Assembly (NCBI GenBank): GCA_023957755.1
Contig: JAMLGT010000003.1
Coordinates: 186,001-250,000, forward strand
From: Chitinophagaceae bacterium
GTDB lineage: Bacteria; Bacteroidota; Bacteroidia; Chitinophagales; Chitinophagaceae
Direction of reading: 5' to 3'
Length of the DNA stretch: 64,000 nucleotides
Both the position numbers and the translations under genes were made by a program. The notes under the pieces were generated by a model, which did no database searches, had not been told where the DNA came from, and worked only from the letters and a program-made list of their open reading frames with translations. This document shows positions 18,298 to 24,010 of the stretch, one piece after another. Positions within the stretch are counted from its first letter, which is position 1. Each line of letters begins with the position of its first letter.

Positions 18298-18371
18298 GGA
18301 TCGGTAGTTCAGTTGGTTAGAATGCTGCCCTGTCACGGCAGAGGTCGCGAGTTCGAGTCTCGTCCGGTCCG
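18298..18371 (+). tRNA. tRNA-Asp (GTC)
   Basis: A complete 74-nt cloverleaf. The acceptor GGATCGG pairs with CCGGTCC (18364-18370) and the discriminator is G18371. The D-arm contains AGTTCAGTTGGTTAGA. The anticodon stem is CTGCC/GGCAG around the loop CTGTCAC, with anticodon GTC at 18332-18334. The T-arm is GCGAG-TTCGAGT-CTCGT. CCA is not encoded. This is the only intact tRNA of the locus; its 3' part from 18348 is repeated at the end of each of the fifteen following 360-bp units. Confidence 0.97.
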
Positions 18372-18379
18372 CAAGAGAG

Positions 18380-18401
18380 CCTCACGGAAGTGGGGTTTTT
18401 T
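18380..18401 (+). terminator. Rho-independent terminator of tRNA-Asp, repeated in each unit
   Basis: Stem CCTCAC/GTGGGG (one G-T pair) with a GGAA tetraloop, then TTTTTT. It recurs every 360 bp ahead of each GIY-YIG ORF; the ATG comes only 5 nt after the T-run. In the last unit the run is interrupted (23796 T to C). Confidence 0.8.
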
Positions 18402-18406
18402 CGTTT

Positions 18407-18676
18407 ATGGGATATTATGTGTACATACTTCGGAGTGAAGTTGATGGCACCTATTACAAAGGCTCCACAGAAGCTCCTGTGAGCAGATTACAAGATCATA
18501 ATTCGGGCAGAAGTACTTACACATCCGGCAAAAGGCCGTGGGTGATGGTGTACTTAGAGGAGATGCCTGACAAGCGTGCAATGCTTATTCGGGAGAAGAA
18601 ACTCAAACGGGGTAATAAGGAATACTTTGAGAAGTTGATTAGCGGAGAAAAGAATATAGTATCACAGTTTTTCTGA
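18407..18676 (+). CDS. GIY-YIG nuclease, array copy 1
   Basis: An 89-aa single-domain GIY-YIG endonuclease of the UPF0213/UvrC N-terminal type. Motifs: YVYIL (4-8) for GIY, TYYKGST (15-21) for YIG with Lys in place of Ile, Arg27, HNSG (31-34), PWVMVYLEE (44-52), and IREKKLK (61-67) with the probable metal-binding Glu63. Small GIY-YIG proteins cut DNA; whether this one is a homing nuclease is inference from its position between tRNA-Asp 3' ends. No Shine-Dalgarno is seen and a terminator lies just upstream, so expression probably depends on read-through from the tRNA promoter. Fourteen identical copies follow. Confidence 0.92.
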   Translation: MGYYVYILRSEVDGTYYKGSTEAPVSRLQDHNSGRSTYTSGKRPWVMVYLEEMPDKRAMLIREKKLKRGNKEYFEKLISGEKNIVSQFF

Positions 18677-18732
18677 TGCTGACCTGTCATCTCTACGACC
18701 GTAGAGACGAGTTCGAGTCTCGTCCGGTCCGC
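18677..18732 (+). other. tRNA-Asp-like 3' fragment with hairpin (first of 15)
   Basis: After the ORF stop comes TGCTGACCTGTCA, differing by one base from the 5' half of the tRNA-Asp anticodon arm. Then there is a perfect hairpin TCTCTAC-GACC-GTAGAGA (18690-18707), then the T-arm and acceptor 3' strand identical to tRNA-Asp. An alternative fold gives a tRNA minihelix: GACCG (18697-18701) pairs with CGGTC (18725-18729) next to a 6-bp T-stem GACGAG/CTCGTC. The fragment recurs every 360 bp to about 23772. It cannot be a working tRNA, since the 5' half is missing. Confidence 0.8.
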
Positions 18733-18766
18733 AAGAGAGCCTCACGGAAGTGGGGTTTTTTCGTTT

Positions 18767-19036
18767 ATGGGATATTATGTGTACATACTTCGGAGTGAAG
18801 TTGATGGCACCTATTACAAAGGCTCCACAGAAGCTCCTGTGAGCAGATTACAAGATCATAATTCGGGCAGAAGTACTTACACATCCGGCAAAAGGCCGTG
18901 GGTGATGGTGTACTTAGAGGAGATGCCTGACAAGCGTGCAATGCTTATTCGGGAGAAGAAACTCAAACGGGGTAATAAGGAATACTTTGAGAAGTTGATT
19001 AGCGGAGAAAAGAATATAGTATCACAGTTTTTCTGA
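18767..19036 (+). CDS. GIY-YIG nuclease, array copy 2
   Basis: Identical protein to copy 1. Upstream it has the repeated tRNA 3' fragment and terminator rather than a whole tRNA. Confidence 0.9.
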   Translation: MGYYVYILRSEVDGTYYKGSTEAPVSRLQDHNSGRSTYTSGKRPWVMVYLEEMPDKRAMLIREKKLKRGNKEYFEKLISGEKNIVSQFF

Positions 19037-19126
19037 TGCTGACCTGTCATCTCTACGACCGTAGAGACGAGTTCGAGTCTCGTCCGGTCCGCAAGAGAGC
19101 CTCACGGAAGTGGGGTTTTTTCGTTT

Positions 19127-19396
19127 ATGGGATATTATGTGTACATACTTCGGAGTGAAGTTGATGGCACCTATTACAAAGGCTCCACAGAAGCTCCTGT
19201 GAGCAGATTACAAGATCATAATTCGGGCAGAAGTACTTACACATCCGGCAAAAGGCCGTGGGTGATGGTGTACTTAGAGGAGATGCCTGACAAGCGTGCA
19301 ATGCTTATTCGGGAGAAGAAACTCAAACGGGGTAATAAGGAATACTTTGAGAAGTTGATTAGCGGAGAAAAGAATATAGTATCACAGTTTTTCTGA
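19127..19396 (+). CDS. GIY-YIG nuclease, array copy 3
   Basis: Identical protein and surroundings to copy 2. Confidence 0.9.
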   Translation: MGYYVYILRSEVDGTYYKGSTEAPVSRLQDHNSGRSTYTSGKRPWVMVYLEEMPDKRAMLIREKKLKRGNKEYFEKLISGEKNIVSQFF

Positions 19397-19486
19397 TGCT
19401 GACCTGTCATCTCTACGACCGTAGAGACGAGTTCGAGTCTCGTCCGGTCCGCAAGAGAGCCTCACGGAAGTGGGGTTTTTTCGTTT

Positions 19487-19756
19487 ATGGGATATTATGT
19501 GTACATACTTCGGAGTGAAGTTGATGGCACCTATTACAAAGGCTCCACAGAAGCTCCTGTGAGCAGATTACAAGATCATAATTCGGGCAGAAGTACTTAC
19601 ACATCCGGCAAAAGGCCGTGGGTGATGGTGTACTTAGAGGAGATGCCTGACAAGCGTGCAATGCTTATTCGGGAGAAGAAACTCAAACGGGGTAATAAGG
19701 AATACTTTGAGAAGTTGATTAGCGGAGAAAAGAATATAGTATCACAGTTTTTCTGA
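19487..19756 (+). CDS. GIY-YIG nuclease, array copy 4
   Basis: Identical protein and surroundings to copy 2. Confidence 0.9.
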   Translation: MGYYVYILRSEVDGTYYKGSTEAPVSRLQDHNSGRSTYTSGKRPWVMVYLEEMPDKRAMLIREKKLKRGNKEYFEKLISGEKNIVSQFF

Positions 19757-19846
19757 TGCTGACCTGTCATCTCTACGACCGTAGAGACGAGTTCGAGTCT
19801 CGTCCGGTCCGCAAGAGAGCCTCACGGAAGTGGGGTTTTTTCGTTT

Positions 19847-20116
19847 ATGGGATATTATGTGTACATACTTCGGAGTGAAGTTGATGGCACCTATTACAAA
19901 GGCTCCACAGAAGCTCCTGTGAGCAGATTACAAGATCATAATTCGGGCAGAAGTACTTACACATCCGGCAAAAGGCCGTGGGTGATGGTGTACTTAGAGG
20001 AGATGCCTGACAAGCGTGCAATGCTTATTCGGGAGAAGAAACTCAAACGGGGTAATAAGGAATACTTTGAGAAGTTGATTAGCGGAGAAAAGAATATAGT
20101 ATCACAGTTTTTCTGA
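19847..20116 (+). CDS. GIY-YIG nuclease, array copy 5
   Basis: Identical protein and surroundings to copy 2. Confidence 0.9.
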   Translation: MGYYVYILRSEVDGTYYKGSTEAPVSRLQDHNSGRSTYTSGKRPWVMVYLEEMPDKRAMLIREKKLKRGNKEYFEKLISGEKNIVSQFF

Positions 20117-20206
20117 TGCTGACCTGTCATCTCTACGACCGTAGAGACGAGTTCGAGTCTCGTCCGGTCCGCAAGAGAGCCTCACGGAAGTGGGGTTTTT
20201 TCGTTT

Positions 20207-20476
20207 ATGGGATATTATGTGTACATACTTCGGAGTGAAGTTGATGGCACCTATTACAAAGGCTCCACAGAAGCTCCTGTGAGCAGATTACAAGATCATA
20301 ATTCGGGCAGAAGTACTTACACATCCGGCAAAAGGCCGTGGGTGATGGTGTACTTAGAGGAGATGCCTGACAAGCGTGCAATGCTTATTCGGGAGAAGAA
20401 ACTCAAACGGGGTAATAAGGAATACTTTGAGAAGTTGATTAGCGGAGAAAAGAATATAGTATCACAGTTTTTCTGA
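20207..20476 (+). CDS. GIY-YIG nuclease, array copy 6
   Basis: Identical protein and surroundings to copy 2. Confidence 0.9.
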   Translation: MGYYVYILRSEVDGTYYKGSTEAPVSRLQDHNSGRSTYTSGKRPWVMVYLEEMPDKRAMLIREKKLKRGNKEYFEKLISGEKNIVSQFF

Positions 20477-20566
20477 TGCTGACCTGTCATCTCTACGACC
20501 GTAGAGACGAGTTCGAGTCTCGTCCGGTCCGCAAGAGAGCCTCACGGAAGTGGGGTTTTTTCGTTT

Positions 20567-20836
20567 ATGGGATATTATGTGTACATACTTCGGAGTGAAG
20601 TTGATGGCACCTATTACAAAGGCTCCACAGAAGCTCCTGTGAGCAGATTACAAGATCATAATTCGGGCAGAAGTACTTACACATCCGGCAAAAGGCCGTG
20701 GGTGATGGTGTACTTAGAGGAGATGCCTGACAAGCGTGCAATGCTTATTCGGGAGAAGAAACTCAAACGGGGTAATAAGGAATACTTTGAGAAGTTGATT
20801 AGCGGAGAAAAGAATATAGTATCACAGTTTTTCTGA
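20567..20836 (+). CDS. GIY-YIG nuclease, array copy 7
   Basis: Identical protein and surroundings to copy 2. Confidence 0.9.
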   Translation: MGYYVYILRSEVDGTYYKGSTEAPVSRLQDHNSGRSTYTSGKRPWVMVYLEEMPDKRAMLIREKKLKRGNKEYFEKLISGEKNIVSQFF

Positions 20837-20926
20837 TGCTGACCTGTCATCTCTACGACCGTAGAGACGAGTTCGAGTCTCGTCCGGTCCGCAAGAGAGC
20901 CTCACGGAAGTGGGGTTTTTTCGTTT

Positions 20927-21196
20927 ATGGGATATTATGTGTACATACTTCGGAGTGAAGTTGATGGCACCTATTACAAAGGCTCCACAGAAGCTCCTGT
21001 GAGCAGATTACAAGATCATAATTCGGGCAGAAGTACTTACACATCCGGCAAAAGGCCGTGGGTGATGGTGTACTTAGAGGAGATGCCTGACAAGCGTGCA
21101 ATGCTTATTCGGGAGAAGAAACTCAAACGGGGTAATAAGGAATACTTTGAGAAGTTGATTAGCGGAGAAAAGAATATAGTATCACAGTTTTTCTGA
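20927..21196 (+). CDS. GIY-YIG nuclease, array copy 8
   Basis: Identical protein and surroundings to copy 2. Confidence 0.9.
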   Translation: MGYYVYILRSEVDGTYYKGSTEAPVSRLQDHNSGRSTYTSGKRPWVMVYLEEMPDKRAMLIREKKLKRGNKEYFEKLISGEKNIVSQFF

Positions 21197-21286
21197 TGCT
21201 GACCTGTCATCTCTACGACCGTAGAGACGAGTTCGAGTCTCGTCCGGTCCGCAAGAGAGCCTCACGGAAGTGGGGTTTTTTCGTTT

Positions 21287-21556
21287 ATGGGATATTATGT
21301 GTACATACTTCGGAGTGAAGTTGATGGCACCTATTACAAAGGCTCCACAGAAGCTCCTGTGAGCAGATTACAAGATCATAATTCGGGCAGAAGTACTTAC
21401 ACATCCGGCAAAAGGCCGTGGGTGATGGTGTACTTAGAGGAGATGCCTGACAAGCGTGCAATGCTTATTCGGGAGAAGAAACTCAAACGGGGTAATAAGG
21501 AATACTTTGAGAAGTTGATTAGCGGAGAAAAGAATATAGTATCACAGTTTTTCTGA
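21287..21556 (+). CDS. GIY-YIG nuclease, array copy 9
   Basis: Identical protein and surroundings to copy 2. Confidence 0.9.
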   Translation: MGYYVYILRSEVDGTYYKGSTEAPVSRLQDHNSGRSTYTSGKRPWVMVYLEEMPDKRAMLIREKKLKRGNKEYFEKLISGEKNIVSQFF

Positions 21557-21646
21557 TGCTGACCTGTCATCTCTACGACCGTAGAGACGAGTTCGAGTCT
21601 CGTCCGGTCCGCAAGAGAGCCTCACGGAAGTGGGGTTTTTTCGTTT

Positions 21647-21916
21647 ATGGGATATTATGTGTACATACTTCGGAGTGAAGTTGATGGCACCTATTACAAA
21701 GGCTCCACAGAAGCTCCTGTGAGCAGATTACAAGATCATAATTCGGGCAGAAGTACTTACACATCCGGCAAAAGGCCGTGGGTGATGGTGTACTTAGAGG
21801 AGATGCCTGACAAGCGTGCAATGCTTATTCGGGAGAAGAAACTCAAACGGGGTAATAAGGAATACTTTGAGAAGTTGATTAGCGGAGAAAAGAATATAGT
21901 ATCACAGTTTTTCTGA
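21647..21916 (+). CDS. GIY-YIG nuclease, array copy 10
   Basis: Identical protein and surroundings to copy 2. Confidence 0.9.
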   Translation: MGYYVYILRSEVDGTYYKGSTEAPVSRLQDHNSGRSTYTSGKRPWVMVYLEEMPDKRAMLIREKKLKRGNKEYFEKLISGEKNIVSQFF

Positions 21917-22006
21917 TGCTGACCTGTCATCTCTACGACCGTAGAGACGAGTTCGAGTCTCGTCCGGTCCGCAAGAGAGCCTCACGGAAGTGGGGTTTTT
22001 TCGTTT

Positions 22007-22276
22007 ATGGGATATTATGTGTACATACTTCGGAGTGAAGTTGATGGCACCTATTACAAAGGCTCCACAGAAGCTCCTGTGAGCAGATTACAAGATCATA
22101 ATTCGGGCAGAAGTACTTACACATCCGGCAAAAGGCCGTGGGTGATGGTGTACTTAGAGGAGATGCCTGACAAGCGTGCAATGCTTATTCGGGAGAAGAA
22201 ACTCAAACGGGGTAATAAGGAATACTTTGAGAAGTTGATTAGCGGAGAAAAGAATATAGTATCACAGTTTTTCTGA
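22007..22276 (+). CDS. GIY-YIG nuclease, array copy 11
   Basis: Identical protein and surroundings to copy 2. Confidence 0.9.
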   Translation: MGYYVYILRSEVDGTYYKGSTEAPVSRLQDHNSGRSTYTSGKRPWVMVYLEEMPDKRAMLIREKKLKRGNKEYFEKLISGEKNIVSQFF

Positions 22277-22366
22277 TGCTGACCTGTCATCTCTACGACC
22301 GTAGAGACGAGTTCGAGTCTCGTCCGGTCCGCAAGAGAGCCTCACGGAAGTGGGGTTTTTTCGTTT

Positions 22367-22636
22367 ATGGGATATTATGTGTACATACTTCGGAGTGAAG
22401 TTGATGGCACCTATTACAAAGGCTCCACAGAAGCTCCTGTGAGCAGATTACAAGATCATAATTCGGGCAGAAGTACTTACACATCCGGCAAAAGGCCGTG
22501 GGTGATGGTGTACTTAGAGGAGATGCCTGACAAGCGTGCAATGCTTATTCGGGAGAAGAAACTCAAACGGGGTAATAAGGAATACTTTGAGAAGTTGATT
22601 AGCGGAGAAAAGAATATAGTATCACAGTTTTTCTGA
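22367..22636 (+). CDS. GIY-YIG nuclease, array copy 12
   Basis: Identical protein and surroundings to copy 2. Confidence 0.9.
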   Translation: MGYYVYILRSEVDGTYYKGSTEAPVSRLQDHNSGRSTYTSGKRPWVMVYLEEMPDKRAMLIREKKLKRGNKEYFEKLISGEKNIVSQFF

Positions 22637-22726
22637 TGCTGACCTGTCATCTCTACGACCGTAGAGACGAGTTCGAGTCTCGTCCGGTCCGCAAGAGAGC
22701 CTCACGGAAGTGGGGTTTTTTCGTTT

Positions 22727-22996
22727 ATGGGATATTATGTGTACATACTTCGGAGTGAAGTTGATGGCACCTATTACAAAGGCTCCACAGAAGCTCCTGT
22801 GAGCAGATTACAAGATCATAATTCGGGCAGAAGTACTTACACATCCGGCAAAAGGCCGTGGGTGATGGTGTACTTAGAGGAGATGCCTGACAAGCGTGCA
22901 ATGCTTATTCGGGAGAAGAAACTCAAACGGGGTAATAAGGAATACTTTGAGAAGTTGATTAGCGGAGAAAAGAATATAGTATCACAGTTTTTCTGA
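22727..22996 (+). CDS. GIY-YIG nuclease, array copy 13
   Basis: Identical protein and surroundings to copy 2. Confidence 0.9.
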   Translation: MGYYVYILRSEVDGTYYKGSTEAPVSRLQDHNSGRSTYTSGKRPWVMVYLEEMPDKRAMLIREKKLKRGNKEYFEKLISGEKNIVSQFF

Positions 22997-23086
22997 TGCT
23001 GACCTGTCATCTCTACGACCGTAGAGACGAGTTCGAGTCTCGTCCGGTCCGCAAGAGAGCCTCACGGAAGTGGGGTTTTTTCGTTT

Positions 23087-23356
23087 ATGGGATATTATGT
23101 GTACATACTTCGGAGTGAAGTTGATGGCACCTATTACAAAGGCTCCACAGAAGCTCCTGTGAGCAGATTACAAGATCATAATTCGGGCAGAAGTACTTAC
23201 ACATCCGGCAAAAGGCCGTGGGTGATGGTGTACTTAGAGGAGATGCCTGACAAGCGTGCAATGCTTATTCGGGAGAAGAAACTCAAACGGGGTAATAAGG
23301 AATACTTTGAGAAGTTGATTAGCGGAGAAAAGAATATAGTATCACAGTTTTTCTGA
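23087..23356 (+). CDS. GIY-YIG nuclease, array copy 14
   Basis: Identical protein to copy 1. The spacer after it carries the first base changes of the array (23362 A to G, 23415 G to A). Confidence 0.9.
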   Translation: MGYYVYILRSEVDGTYYKGSTEAPVSRLQDHNSGRSTYTSGKRPWVMVYLEEMPDKRAMLIREKKLKRGNKEYFEKLISGEKNIVSQFF

Positions 23357-23446
23357 TGCTGGCCTGTCATCTCTACGACCGTAGAGACGAGTTCGAGTCT
23401 CGTCCGGTCCGCAAAAGAGCCTCACGGAAGTGGGGTTTTTTCGTTT

Positions 23447-23716
23447 ATGGGATATTATGTGTACATACTTCGGAGTGAAGTTGATGGCACCTATTACAAA
23501 GGCTCCACAGAAGCTCCTGTGAGCAGATTACAAGATCATAATTCGGGCAGAAGTACTTACACATCCGGCAAAAGGCCGTGGGTAATGGTGTACTTAGAGG
23601 AGATGCCTGACAAGCGTGCAATGCTTATTCGGGAGAAGAAACTCAAACGGGGTAATAAGGAATACTTTGAGAAGTTGATTAGCGGAGAAAAGAATATAGT
23701 ATCACAGTTTTTCTGA
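23447..23716 (+). CDS. GIY-YIG nuclease, array copy 15
   Basis: Identical protein to copy 1, with one silent change (GTG to GTA, Val46, at 23584). It is the last complete copy. Confidence 0.9.
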   Translation: MGYYVYILRSEVDGTYYKGSTEAPVSRLQDHNSGRSTYTSGKRPWVMVYLEEMPDKRAMLIREKKLKRGNKEYFEKLISGEKNIVSQFF

Positions 23717-23806
23717 TGCTGACCTGTCATCTCTACGACCGTAGAGACGAGTTCGAGTCTCGTCCGGTCCGCAAAAGAGCCTCACGGAAGTGGGGCTTTT
23801 TCGTTT

Positions 23807-24010
23807 ATGGGATATTATGTGTACATACTTCGGAGTGAAGTTGATGGCACCTATTACAAAGGCTCCACAGAAGCTCCTGTGAGCAGATTACAAGATCATA
23901 ATGCAGGCAGAAGTTACTACATAGTTTTGGGAGCTAATTATTATAGTTTGCGAGGTGTGGTACCCGGAGAACTATTTTTTCAGCACCTGCAGAGCCTTGA
24001 GCACAGTTGA
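23807..24010 (+). pseudogene. Truncated GIY-YIG gene, array copy 16
   Basis: The first 32 residues match the other copies. Two base changes (23903, 23905) turn Ser33 into Ala, and similarity ends near 23914. The frame then runs through unrelated sequence for a 67-aa product lacking the PWVMVYLEE and REKKLK parts, and its end overlaps the 3' end of the opposite S41 protease gene by 39 bp. The catalytic Glu is lost, so this is a broken end unit. It may be the oldest unit, or the remnant of the other border of the original insertion. Confidence 0.85.

Follow-up and report, generated by a model that had tools for sequence, protein, structure and literature searches.

The stretch of DNA considered here, called the window throughout, comprises 64,000 nucleotides of a draft genome of a Chitinophagaceae bacterium (GenBank assembly GCA_023957755.1, contig JAMLGT010000003.1, positions 186,001 to 250,000 of the forward strand). 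It contains an intact tRNA-Asp gene that is directly followed by a tandem array of 360-bp units, and each full unit carries a small GIY-YIG nuclease gene together with a partial copy of the same tRNA gene, referred to as the decoy. Genomes and loci that were compared are numbered with G and L, respectively, G000 being the window's own genome. The features of the array, in window coordinates, are the following:

18298..18372, + strand: intact tRNA-Asp (GTC), the host gene of the array (ARAGORN; Rfam RF00005, 66.5 bits)
18374..18400, + strand: terminator-like hairpin of the tRNA with a T-run, copied in every unit; the open reading frame (ORF) starts 6 nt further on (sequence; RNA fold of -14.0 kcal/mol)
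18407..18676, + strand: first 89-residue GIY-YIG ORF, recurring at 360-bp intervals up to the fifteenth copy at 23447-23716 (ORF list; Pfam PF01541)
18672..18733, + strand: first decoy, overlapping the ORF stop codon and present once per unit (alignment; the local alignment covers tRNA nt 25-75)
18690..18707, no strand: palindrome TCTCTACGACCGTAGAGA within the decoy (pattern search)
18348..23914, + strand: full tandem array, 360-bp period, 15.5 units (Tandem Repeats Finder, TRF)
23028..23914, + strand: tRNA-distal units 14-16, the sole units with substitutions (23362, 23415, 23584, 23775, 23796, 23903, 23905) (unit comparison)
23807..24010, + strand: distal broken ORF copy, about 39 nuclease residues followed by flank (ORF list; same break place in the relative G006, locus L048)

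These units form a single tandem array with 99% matches, and the exact 360-bp period with fifteen full copies and one broken copy of the nuclease gene, as described in the initial annotation, is reproduced by TRF and by the ORF list of the window (15 intact ORFs and one broken). The cassettes had also been called identical, which holds for the proteins, all 15 full ORFs encoding the same 89 residues, but not for the DNA, where units 1-13 are identical and substitutions occur in unit 14 (one), unit 15 (two) and the partial unit 16 (four). That each unit starts with the tRNA-Asp 3' end was correctly seen, but the unit content is larger and also includes the decoy with its palindrome and the terminator-like hairpin. 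The ATG of the first ORF lies 34 nt past the tRNA 3' end, just beyond this hairpin and its T-run, and each full ORF is followed by the partial tRNA-Asp, the intact tRNA 3' end and a copy of the hairpin, in this order. The hairpin at 18374..18400 was not among the matches of a consensus scan. Rfam calls a tRNA only for the intact copy and not for the partial ones. As a 19-nt tRNA 3' pattern has 16 matches at up to two mismatches genome-wide, all of them within the array, and a search of the genome with the whole tRNA-Asp gave one match, the tRNA-Asp of the array appears to be the sole tRNA-Asp gene of the genome. A scan for sigma-70-like promoters found one weak site per unit (2 in the scanned stretch against 0.9 expected), and a promoter in each unit was rejected because these sites are weak and near chance; the array contains no TTTG-N18-21-TAnnTTTG site, which we take to be the Bacteroidota-type promoter pattern.

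The array is real as a sequence, and its exact copy number is provable only with reads. Arrays of three to five near-identical units are also present in genomes that consist of a single contig, namely at tRNA-Asp in G383 (5 copies), tRNA-Leu in G328 (5), tRNA-Ser in G224 (3) and tRNA-Met in G262 (5), which shows that arrays of this type are more than products of assembly.

The encoded protein belongs to the GIY-YIG superfamily; it matches Pfam PF01541 with 58.2 bits (cut-off 22.6, E 1e-15). When the window sequence is aligned with those of 24 relatives, the residues Y6, S10, Y17, G19, R27, H31, E63 and K67 are invariant in all 25. The catalytic residues are presumably among Y6, Y17, G19, R27, H31 and E63. 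As judged from the comparison of the G000 and G006 ORFs, the gene is under purifying selection (nonsynonymous divergence dN 0.056, synonymous divergence dS 0.44, dN/dS about 0.13). The nearest solved structures by sequence are the UPF0213 proteins BH0048 (E 1.7e-17) and EF2693, and SLX1. The sole PHROG match is a weak one to a homing endonuclease (E 0.0064), and a search of NCBIfam gave no match for the window nuclease. A known anti-phage defence system was considered and rejected, as no PADLOC family matched at E up to 0.01.

It had been suggested that related strains with zero or few units at this locus would support an element that expands there, and such strains exist, with zero, one or few units. 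Fourteen genomes of the genus, the window's own included, have a tRNA-Asp match; judged by eye from the 230 nt before and up to 330 nt after each tRNA-Asp (with only about 200-240 nt of contig downstream in G001 and G008), four of these loci are filled, one has an ORF relic (G005), one has decoys only (G004) and eight are empty. Among the filled ones, the tRNA precedes the ORF in G000, G006 and G014 and is downstream of it in G016; in G003, a degenerate tRNA-Asp 5' stretch lies upstream of the tRNA-Asp. G006 is a close relative, with 99% identity in the S41 protease next to the array, and its tRNA-Asp is followed by about 1.4 units, namely a complete unit and then a broken copy whose break is at the same place as in the window. 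This locus is on a contig of 3,780 nt that is possibly collapsed and whose sequence corresponds to the public record JACFNA010000251.1, and hairpin-bearing tRNA-Asp copies are also found upstream of its tRNA. In G004, the next nearest relative by the S41 protease (79%), this protease adjoins tandem tRNA-Asp decoys with a different palindrome; the contigs stop inside the decoy repeat, and a nuclease ORF was not found in the assembled part. ORF-less tRNA-Asp decoys with one or two hairpins were seen upstream of the intact tRNA at L023/L073 (G014), L048 (G006) and L049, those of G014 and G006 being tandem and copying the tRNA leader. A second cassette of the window genome is located at tRNA-Glu (L017, G000:C2, 147804-150998); its GIY-YIG ORF is 43% identical to that of the window and is followed by tRNA-Glu 3' fragments in which another palindrome splits the T-loop.

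Beyond this locus, the ORF has a match in 61 of 99 relatives, and the profile A1 has one in 267 of 392 phylum genomes of at least 90% completeness, which is an upper bound for cassettes because the count includes family members without tRNAs. Of the best 29 loci outside the window's genome (L019-L047), 23 have a tRNA gene inside, and five of the remaining six are at or near a contig end. Loci with an intact same-strand tRNA just upstream of the ORF are designated type A, and those with such a tRNA just downstream type B. A first set, taken from the window and its relatives, comprised 128 ORFs of at least 60 residues, of which 53 were type A, 17 type B, 3 both and 55 neither. In the enlarged set, an intact tRNA is adjacent to 117 of 200 distinct ORFs (90 A, 27 B) and 16 amino-acid types are represented; this set keeps L019 and L048, which are one record twice, and L019 was removed for the cross-family isotype test described below. 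Loci repeating the same place were dropped from the polarity, decoy, hairpin-site and tail counts.

In most of these loci, the ORF has an intact tRNA on one side and a fragment of that isotype on the other. A fragment was accepted if its score exceeded the best of 100 shuffles and that of every other isotype, and by this rule it was found opposite the intact tRNA in 42/51 type A and 15/17 type B cases of the first set (omitting two type A ORFs with a short flank and three ORFs between two tRNAs) and in 81/91 and 25/28 cases of the enlarged set (omitting one type A ORF). Type A decoys mostly retain the tRNA 3' end and type B decoys mostly the 5' end; the fragment borders differ between loci, and the C-terminal codons of several ORFs extend into tRNA sequence. 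According to the initial annotation, an ORF that occurs freely without any tRNA sequence would speak against the proposal, and this is the situation in a part of the wider family: of the 83 ORFs that have no intact tRNA next to them, 51 lack a tRNA-like flank at the threshold used, including some inner array copies and ORFs at contig ends. A tRNA-like flank is present in 31/64 of these 83 ORFs that are shorter than 98 residues versus 1/19 of those with at least 98, a contrast that is rough, since 3 of the 18 longer flank-less ORFs (L213 and two in L216) sit inside tRNA arrays, as inner copies with read-through ends.

The window decoy consists of tRNA-Asp from about nt 21-25 to nt 75, with nt 39-50 swapped for the palindrome TCTCTACGACCGTAGAGA (site 38/51 in tRNA coordinates). 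The pattern of TCTCTACGACCGTAGAGA occurs in 15 copies in the array and at three further sites of the genome, and a reversed-pattern control at none. Such palindromes are a general property of the decoys, as a perfect hairpin of at least 6 bp was found in 75/106 decoys, compared with 26/106 intact tRNAs and 0.13 per shuffled span, the span being the decoy plus 18 nt on each side, so that a few hairpins are outside the tRNA part. The borders of the hairpins recur exactly among 54 mapped ORFs other than those of the window, with 27/45 nine times, 28/46 four times, and 38/51, 22/23 and 25/36 three times each. The commonest of these, 27/45, replaces the anticodon arm, and 54 of 77 hairpins start with TC or NTCC.

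The nuclease largely tracks the tRNA isotype, as far as the tree and the nearest-neighbor comparison indicate. The tree was calculated from the first 70 aligned residues, so that the tRNA-encoded tails do not drive the grouping, and it shows 40 isotype changes against a mean of 87 and a minimum of 81 in 200 shuffles, while changes of bacterial family number 52 against 67.7 when shuffled. The nearest ORF from another bacterial family is at the same isotype in 60 of 114 cases (mean 10.2 and maximum 23 in 1000 shuffles); this agreement is high for Asn (8/9), Met (10/12) and Asp (10/14) and absent for Lys (0/6), Phe (0/3) and Leu (0/3). A search for the same ORF at other tRNA-Asp loci had been suggested, and the nine tRNA-labelled ORFs closest to the window's on the tree are all at tRNA-Asp (two of them being one record); tandem arrays are also found at other tRNAs in other genomes.

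The arrays have a polarity. Of 26 arrays with both intact and broken copies, 22 carry the broken ones on the tRNA-distal side, 2 on the proximal side and 2 in mixed positions (binomial test, 22/24, p = 3.6e-5); L002, and with it the window, was left out of this count, nine loci that were ambiguous or had no intact tRNA at one end were not counted, and in one case the second copy is cut by the contig end. The window array fits, as all seven substitutions are in units 14-16. In type B arrays, where distal means upstream, the broken copies are distal in four of five, which speaks against a decay caused by missing read-through from the tRNA, although with five arrays only.

An insertion-like structure is seen in G022, which has two tRNA-Asp genes on one contig, one empty and one filled. 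The empty tRNA-Asp is followed by the terminator AGGAAGCTTCGAAGAAATTCGGGGC. Behind the filled one there are another terminator, the ORF and the decoy, and only then the terminator of the empty copy, AGGAAGCTTCGAAGAAATTCGGGGC; after the decoy, 61 of 62 nt are identical between the pair, the tRNA 3' end included, and no BLAST match was found between the upstream flanks. In sequence terms, a cassette that comes with a tRNA 3' end and a terminator of its own and displaces those of the resident gene would be expected to leave this structure.

We think that the unit is probably a homing-type parasite of the tRNA gene that grows unit by unit at the tRNA-proximal end. The initial annotation had proposed a minimal selfish or regulatory element expanding at a tRNA gene; this is supported by the relatives and by the recurrent arrays, and the word selfish is a matter of interpretation. 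As in homing elements, the ORF is flanked by sequence of its presumed target gene (81/91 and 25/28, as mentioned above), and it is present or absent at an orthologous tRNA-Asp. The cassette would consist of a tRNA 3' end, a terminator, the GIY-YIG gene and the decoy tRNA. Its nuclease would cut the intact tRNA gene, and the palindrome would mark or mask the cut region in the decoy, which may thereby be protected. At an empty allele, the break would be repaired from a filled one, with the intact tRNA as the left arm (any intact tRNA of the donor could serve as template for the left end) and the tRNA 3' end of the decoy as the right arm, and the element would move in this way; the product would be a rebuilt tRNA plus cassette, with the resident 3' end and terminator shoved downstream. 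At a filled allele, a self-inflicted cut would be repaired from the sister, and if the right end pairs with the first decoy rather than with the intact tRNA, exactly one unit would be added beside the tRNA. Repeated gains of one unit would lead to a period-perfect array with the youngest unit at the tRNA, and repair after self-cutting thus predicts arrays of the kind found. In the mirror arrangement, with the intact tRNA downstream, the same process would run reversed.

Several observations weigh against this reading. The filled allele retains an intact tRNA, which is the presumed target, so that the immunity of the donor is not accounted for, and the nearest solved relatives of the nuclease are UPF0213 and SLX1 rather than classical homing enzymes. 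At L079 and L083, the broken copies are proximal to the tRNA. The displacement seen in G022 is not the rule, because among 62 type A loci with a later tRNA 3' end, only 29 have a tail after the last such end that differs from the tail of the intact tRNA, by our own score cut-off and with L002, hence the window, outside the 62; the 33 loci with similar tails and the window array look like plain tandem duplication. Part of the isotype signal could come from descent at orthologous tRNAs, as it is expected from this as well as from horizontal homing; the patchy occurrence in a single genus, together with the relics, favours gain and loss. About 15 longer family ORFs (at least 98 residues), which are not in arrays, are apparently located away from tRNAs. 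Sampling was by similarity and not random, the profile A1 derives from ORFs associated with tRNAs, and some loci were picked partly for their tandem matches. Finally, the palindrome site follows nuclease relatedness overall (40/54, reached by 0 of 500 within-isotype shuffles), but across families within an isotype the value is 24/54 against 19.8 and is reached by 64 of 500 shuffles; a palindrome position set by the nuclease regardless of the host was therefore not retained except as a suggestion.

As alternative to the homing-type parasite, plain tandem amplification by RecA or slippage of a gene that lies between tRNA fragments, perhaps selected for dosage and with the nuclease uninvolved, has to be considered. 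It accommodates the exact tandem duplication of the array and the 33/62 loci in which similar sequence follows the last decoy and the tRNA, but leaves unexplained that the ORFs occur at 16 amino-acid types with same-isotype fragments, that isotype fidelity exists and that decay is one-sided in both orientations (with only five mirror-type arrays), and we regard it as unlikely. A gain in nuclease dosage is doubtful in particular, because each ORF follows a terminator-like hairpin and promoter sites are weak or absent. A host function, in which the nuclease acts on tRNAs or tRNA genes, for example in defence or as a toxin, and is restrained by decoy RNAs that mimic tRNA, appears quite improbable. 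That the decoys retain part of the tRNA, that the ORF is under purifying selection and that in at least 15 of the 54 mapped cases the anticodon arm is replaced by a hairpin of similar size (27/45, 28/46 or 26/44) would agree with it, but not the absence of a PADLOC match, the patchy and decaying distribution with the relic in G005 and 8/14 empty genus members, or the solved relatives UPF0213 and SLX1, the latter being named a structure-specific endonuclease.

Genes for tRNAs are classic integration sites, and integrative elements rebuild the tRNA 3' end. The fragments could accordingly be attL and attR sites made by a recombinase acting in trans, with the GIY-YIG gene as cargo, and the rebuilt tRNA 3' end of type A loci and the insertion-like G022 pair would suit such an origin. 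We give it slightly less credence than a host function: the 360-bp unit is largely taken up by the GIY-YIG ORF, which holds the only named domain found in it (two shorter antisense ORFs being unsearched), mirror-type loci also have the same-isotype fragment (25/28), mostly as a tRNA 5' end, the fragment borders vary, and phage and plasmid records are nearly devoid of the family. It is scarcely credible that the array is an assembly artefact with a real copy number of one or few. The assembly is a draft of 35 contigs and G006 has about 1.4 units, though its short contig may be a collapse; the variants in units 14-16 are ordered, however, and the arrays of 3-5 units in single-contig genomes do not fit an artefact either.

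A bolder version of the homing-type parasite, which we put forward tentatively and would not yet call probable, is that of phylum-wide minimal mobile elements made of one GIY-YIG gene and pieces of one tRNA gene, which exploit most tRNA isotypes (16 amino-acid types being represented) and are matched by clade to an isotype. Their decoys could not be cut, a dispersed palindrome having taken the place of the target arm, and their arrays would grow by self-cutting at the proximal end only, in a direction like that of CRISPR spacer arrays, and so record their own history. The cassette arrangement may even reach beyond Bacteroidota. In the metagenome-assembled genomes L052 (Candidatus Wolfebacteria) and L053 (Parcubacteria), GIY-YIG ORFs of this type run up to a tRNA-Cys, ending at it or immediately before it, and no decoy was detected at these two loci. 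An origin from phages or plasmids was rejected in view of the near-absence of the family from their records, with matches in 12 of 50,697 phage and 7 of 72,556 plasmid records, all below 60% identity, and two weak loci in IMG/VR.

Palindromes of this kind are also found away from the cassettes. In most of the 8 genomes first tried and in many of 392, TCCCGA..TCGGGA occurs scattered in numbers well above those of the reversed-pattern control, whereas the dispersal of TCCGCC..GGCGGA is less clear (8 versus 4 in the control in G383, 4 versus 3 in G280). Within the window's class, the median count of TCCCGA..TCGGGA is 8.5 in GIY-positive genomes (n=84) versus 3.0 in 20 listed GIY-negative ones (p 0.0005), a comparison with uncontrolled kinship and with 105 further GIY-negative genomes outside the list. 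A spreading of palindromes by the nuclease was rejected, as GIY-negative genomes carry TCCCGA..TCGGGA too. The form TCCCGA-N-TCGGGA is present in many phylum genomes with up to 111 copies per genome (control mostly 0-5, and 29, 29 and 40 in three), and eleven such palindromes lie within 1.2 kb at G000:C7:41291-42487. At L070 (877-1060, G000:C33) and L063 (G006:C411), a tRNA-Phe is followed by an apparent degenerate tRNA-Phe 3' end, in which the T-arm is swapped for a TCTCTAC..GTAGAGA palindrome, and tblastn found no nuclease ORF within these loci of 2-3 kb. At L056 (G000:C4:54240-54257) and L061 (G006:C210), a palindrome with the same pattern makes up a stem in what we take to be RNase P RNA.

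With respect to known systems, the statement in the initial annotation that no system of this type has been described was too strong, because the mORFs of fungal mitochondria and SegB of T-even phages are close functional precedents. The parts considered of a 2006 survey of the GIY-YIG superfamily do not mention tRNA-nested cassettes (PMC1564403), and an account of such cassettes in bacterial chromosomes was not found among the matches listed (titles and abstract openings in the openly licensed literature, without bioRxiv). As far as this search extends, we consider the system to be real and apparently undescribed for chromosomes, with the tandem, decoy-bearing and isotype-matched form as the new element and a mechanism proposed by analogy with free-standing homing cassettes that carry a gene 3' end. 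Closest by sequence among solved structures are the UPF0213 and SLX1-like GIY-YIG proteins, from which the cassette nuclease is set apart in that SLX1 is named in the PDB as a structure-specific endonuclease subunit.

The mORFs, described for atp6 of Allomyces and for atp6, atp9, cox2 and nad3 of Glomus (PMC3630166), seem to be the closest parallel in which a nuclease ORF comes with a gene 3' end and displaces the native one. According to the passages on them, the endonuclease ORF carries a copy of the 3' end of the host gene that replaces the native one wholly or partly, the native end remains downstream of the ORF, and the atp9 enzyme is a GIY-YIG protein (PMC3630166). In contrast to the cassettes, the host genes are protein-coding mitochondrial genes, and the same passages do not mention a tRNA target, tandem arrays or palindrome decoys (PMC3630166).

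Among GIY-YIG enzymes that cut tRNA genes and bring about tandem amplification, SegB seems to be the closest parallel. It is described in the parts of the report considered as a free-standing enzyme encoded between tRNA genes that cuts in tRNA genes, has the published motif RAWTSGAAC and is required for the tandem amplification of its own segment (PMC13096335). In T4 (L294, AF158101, 69500-74500), segB starts 41 nt past tRNA-Ile and ends 5 nt before tRNA-Arg, a cassette-like geometry. The motif RAWTSGAAC is presumably the complement of the tRNA T-loop consensus. Unlike the window nuclease with its 89 residues, SegB has 221 (compared without the first), and membership of the window ORF in the SegB family was rejected (BLASTP E 0.10, hhalign probability 4.9). 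Furthermore, T4 segB has no fragment of the neighboring tRNA on its other side, whereas the window has one, and SegB acts in a phage rather than a chromosome and amplifies a full tRNA, which the window array does not.

If the proposed reading is true, tRNA genes across Bacteroidota host tiny nuclease cassettes that rebuild the essential gene they occupy, which would account for the strings of partial tRNA copies and the small GIY-YIG genes beside tRNAs. The order of units in an array may then record its own history, and the position of the palindrome would predict the cut region of each enzyme, whose single catalytic domain is small enough for an easy assay. Such cassettes would be the bacterial chromosomal counterpart both to the mORFs of fungal mitochondria and to the SegB-dependent amplification in phages.

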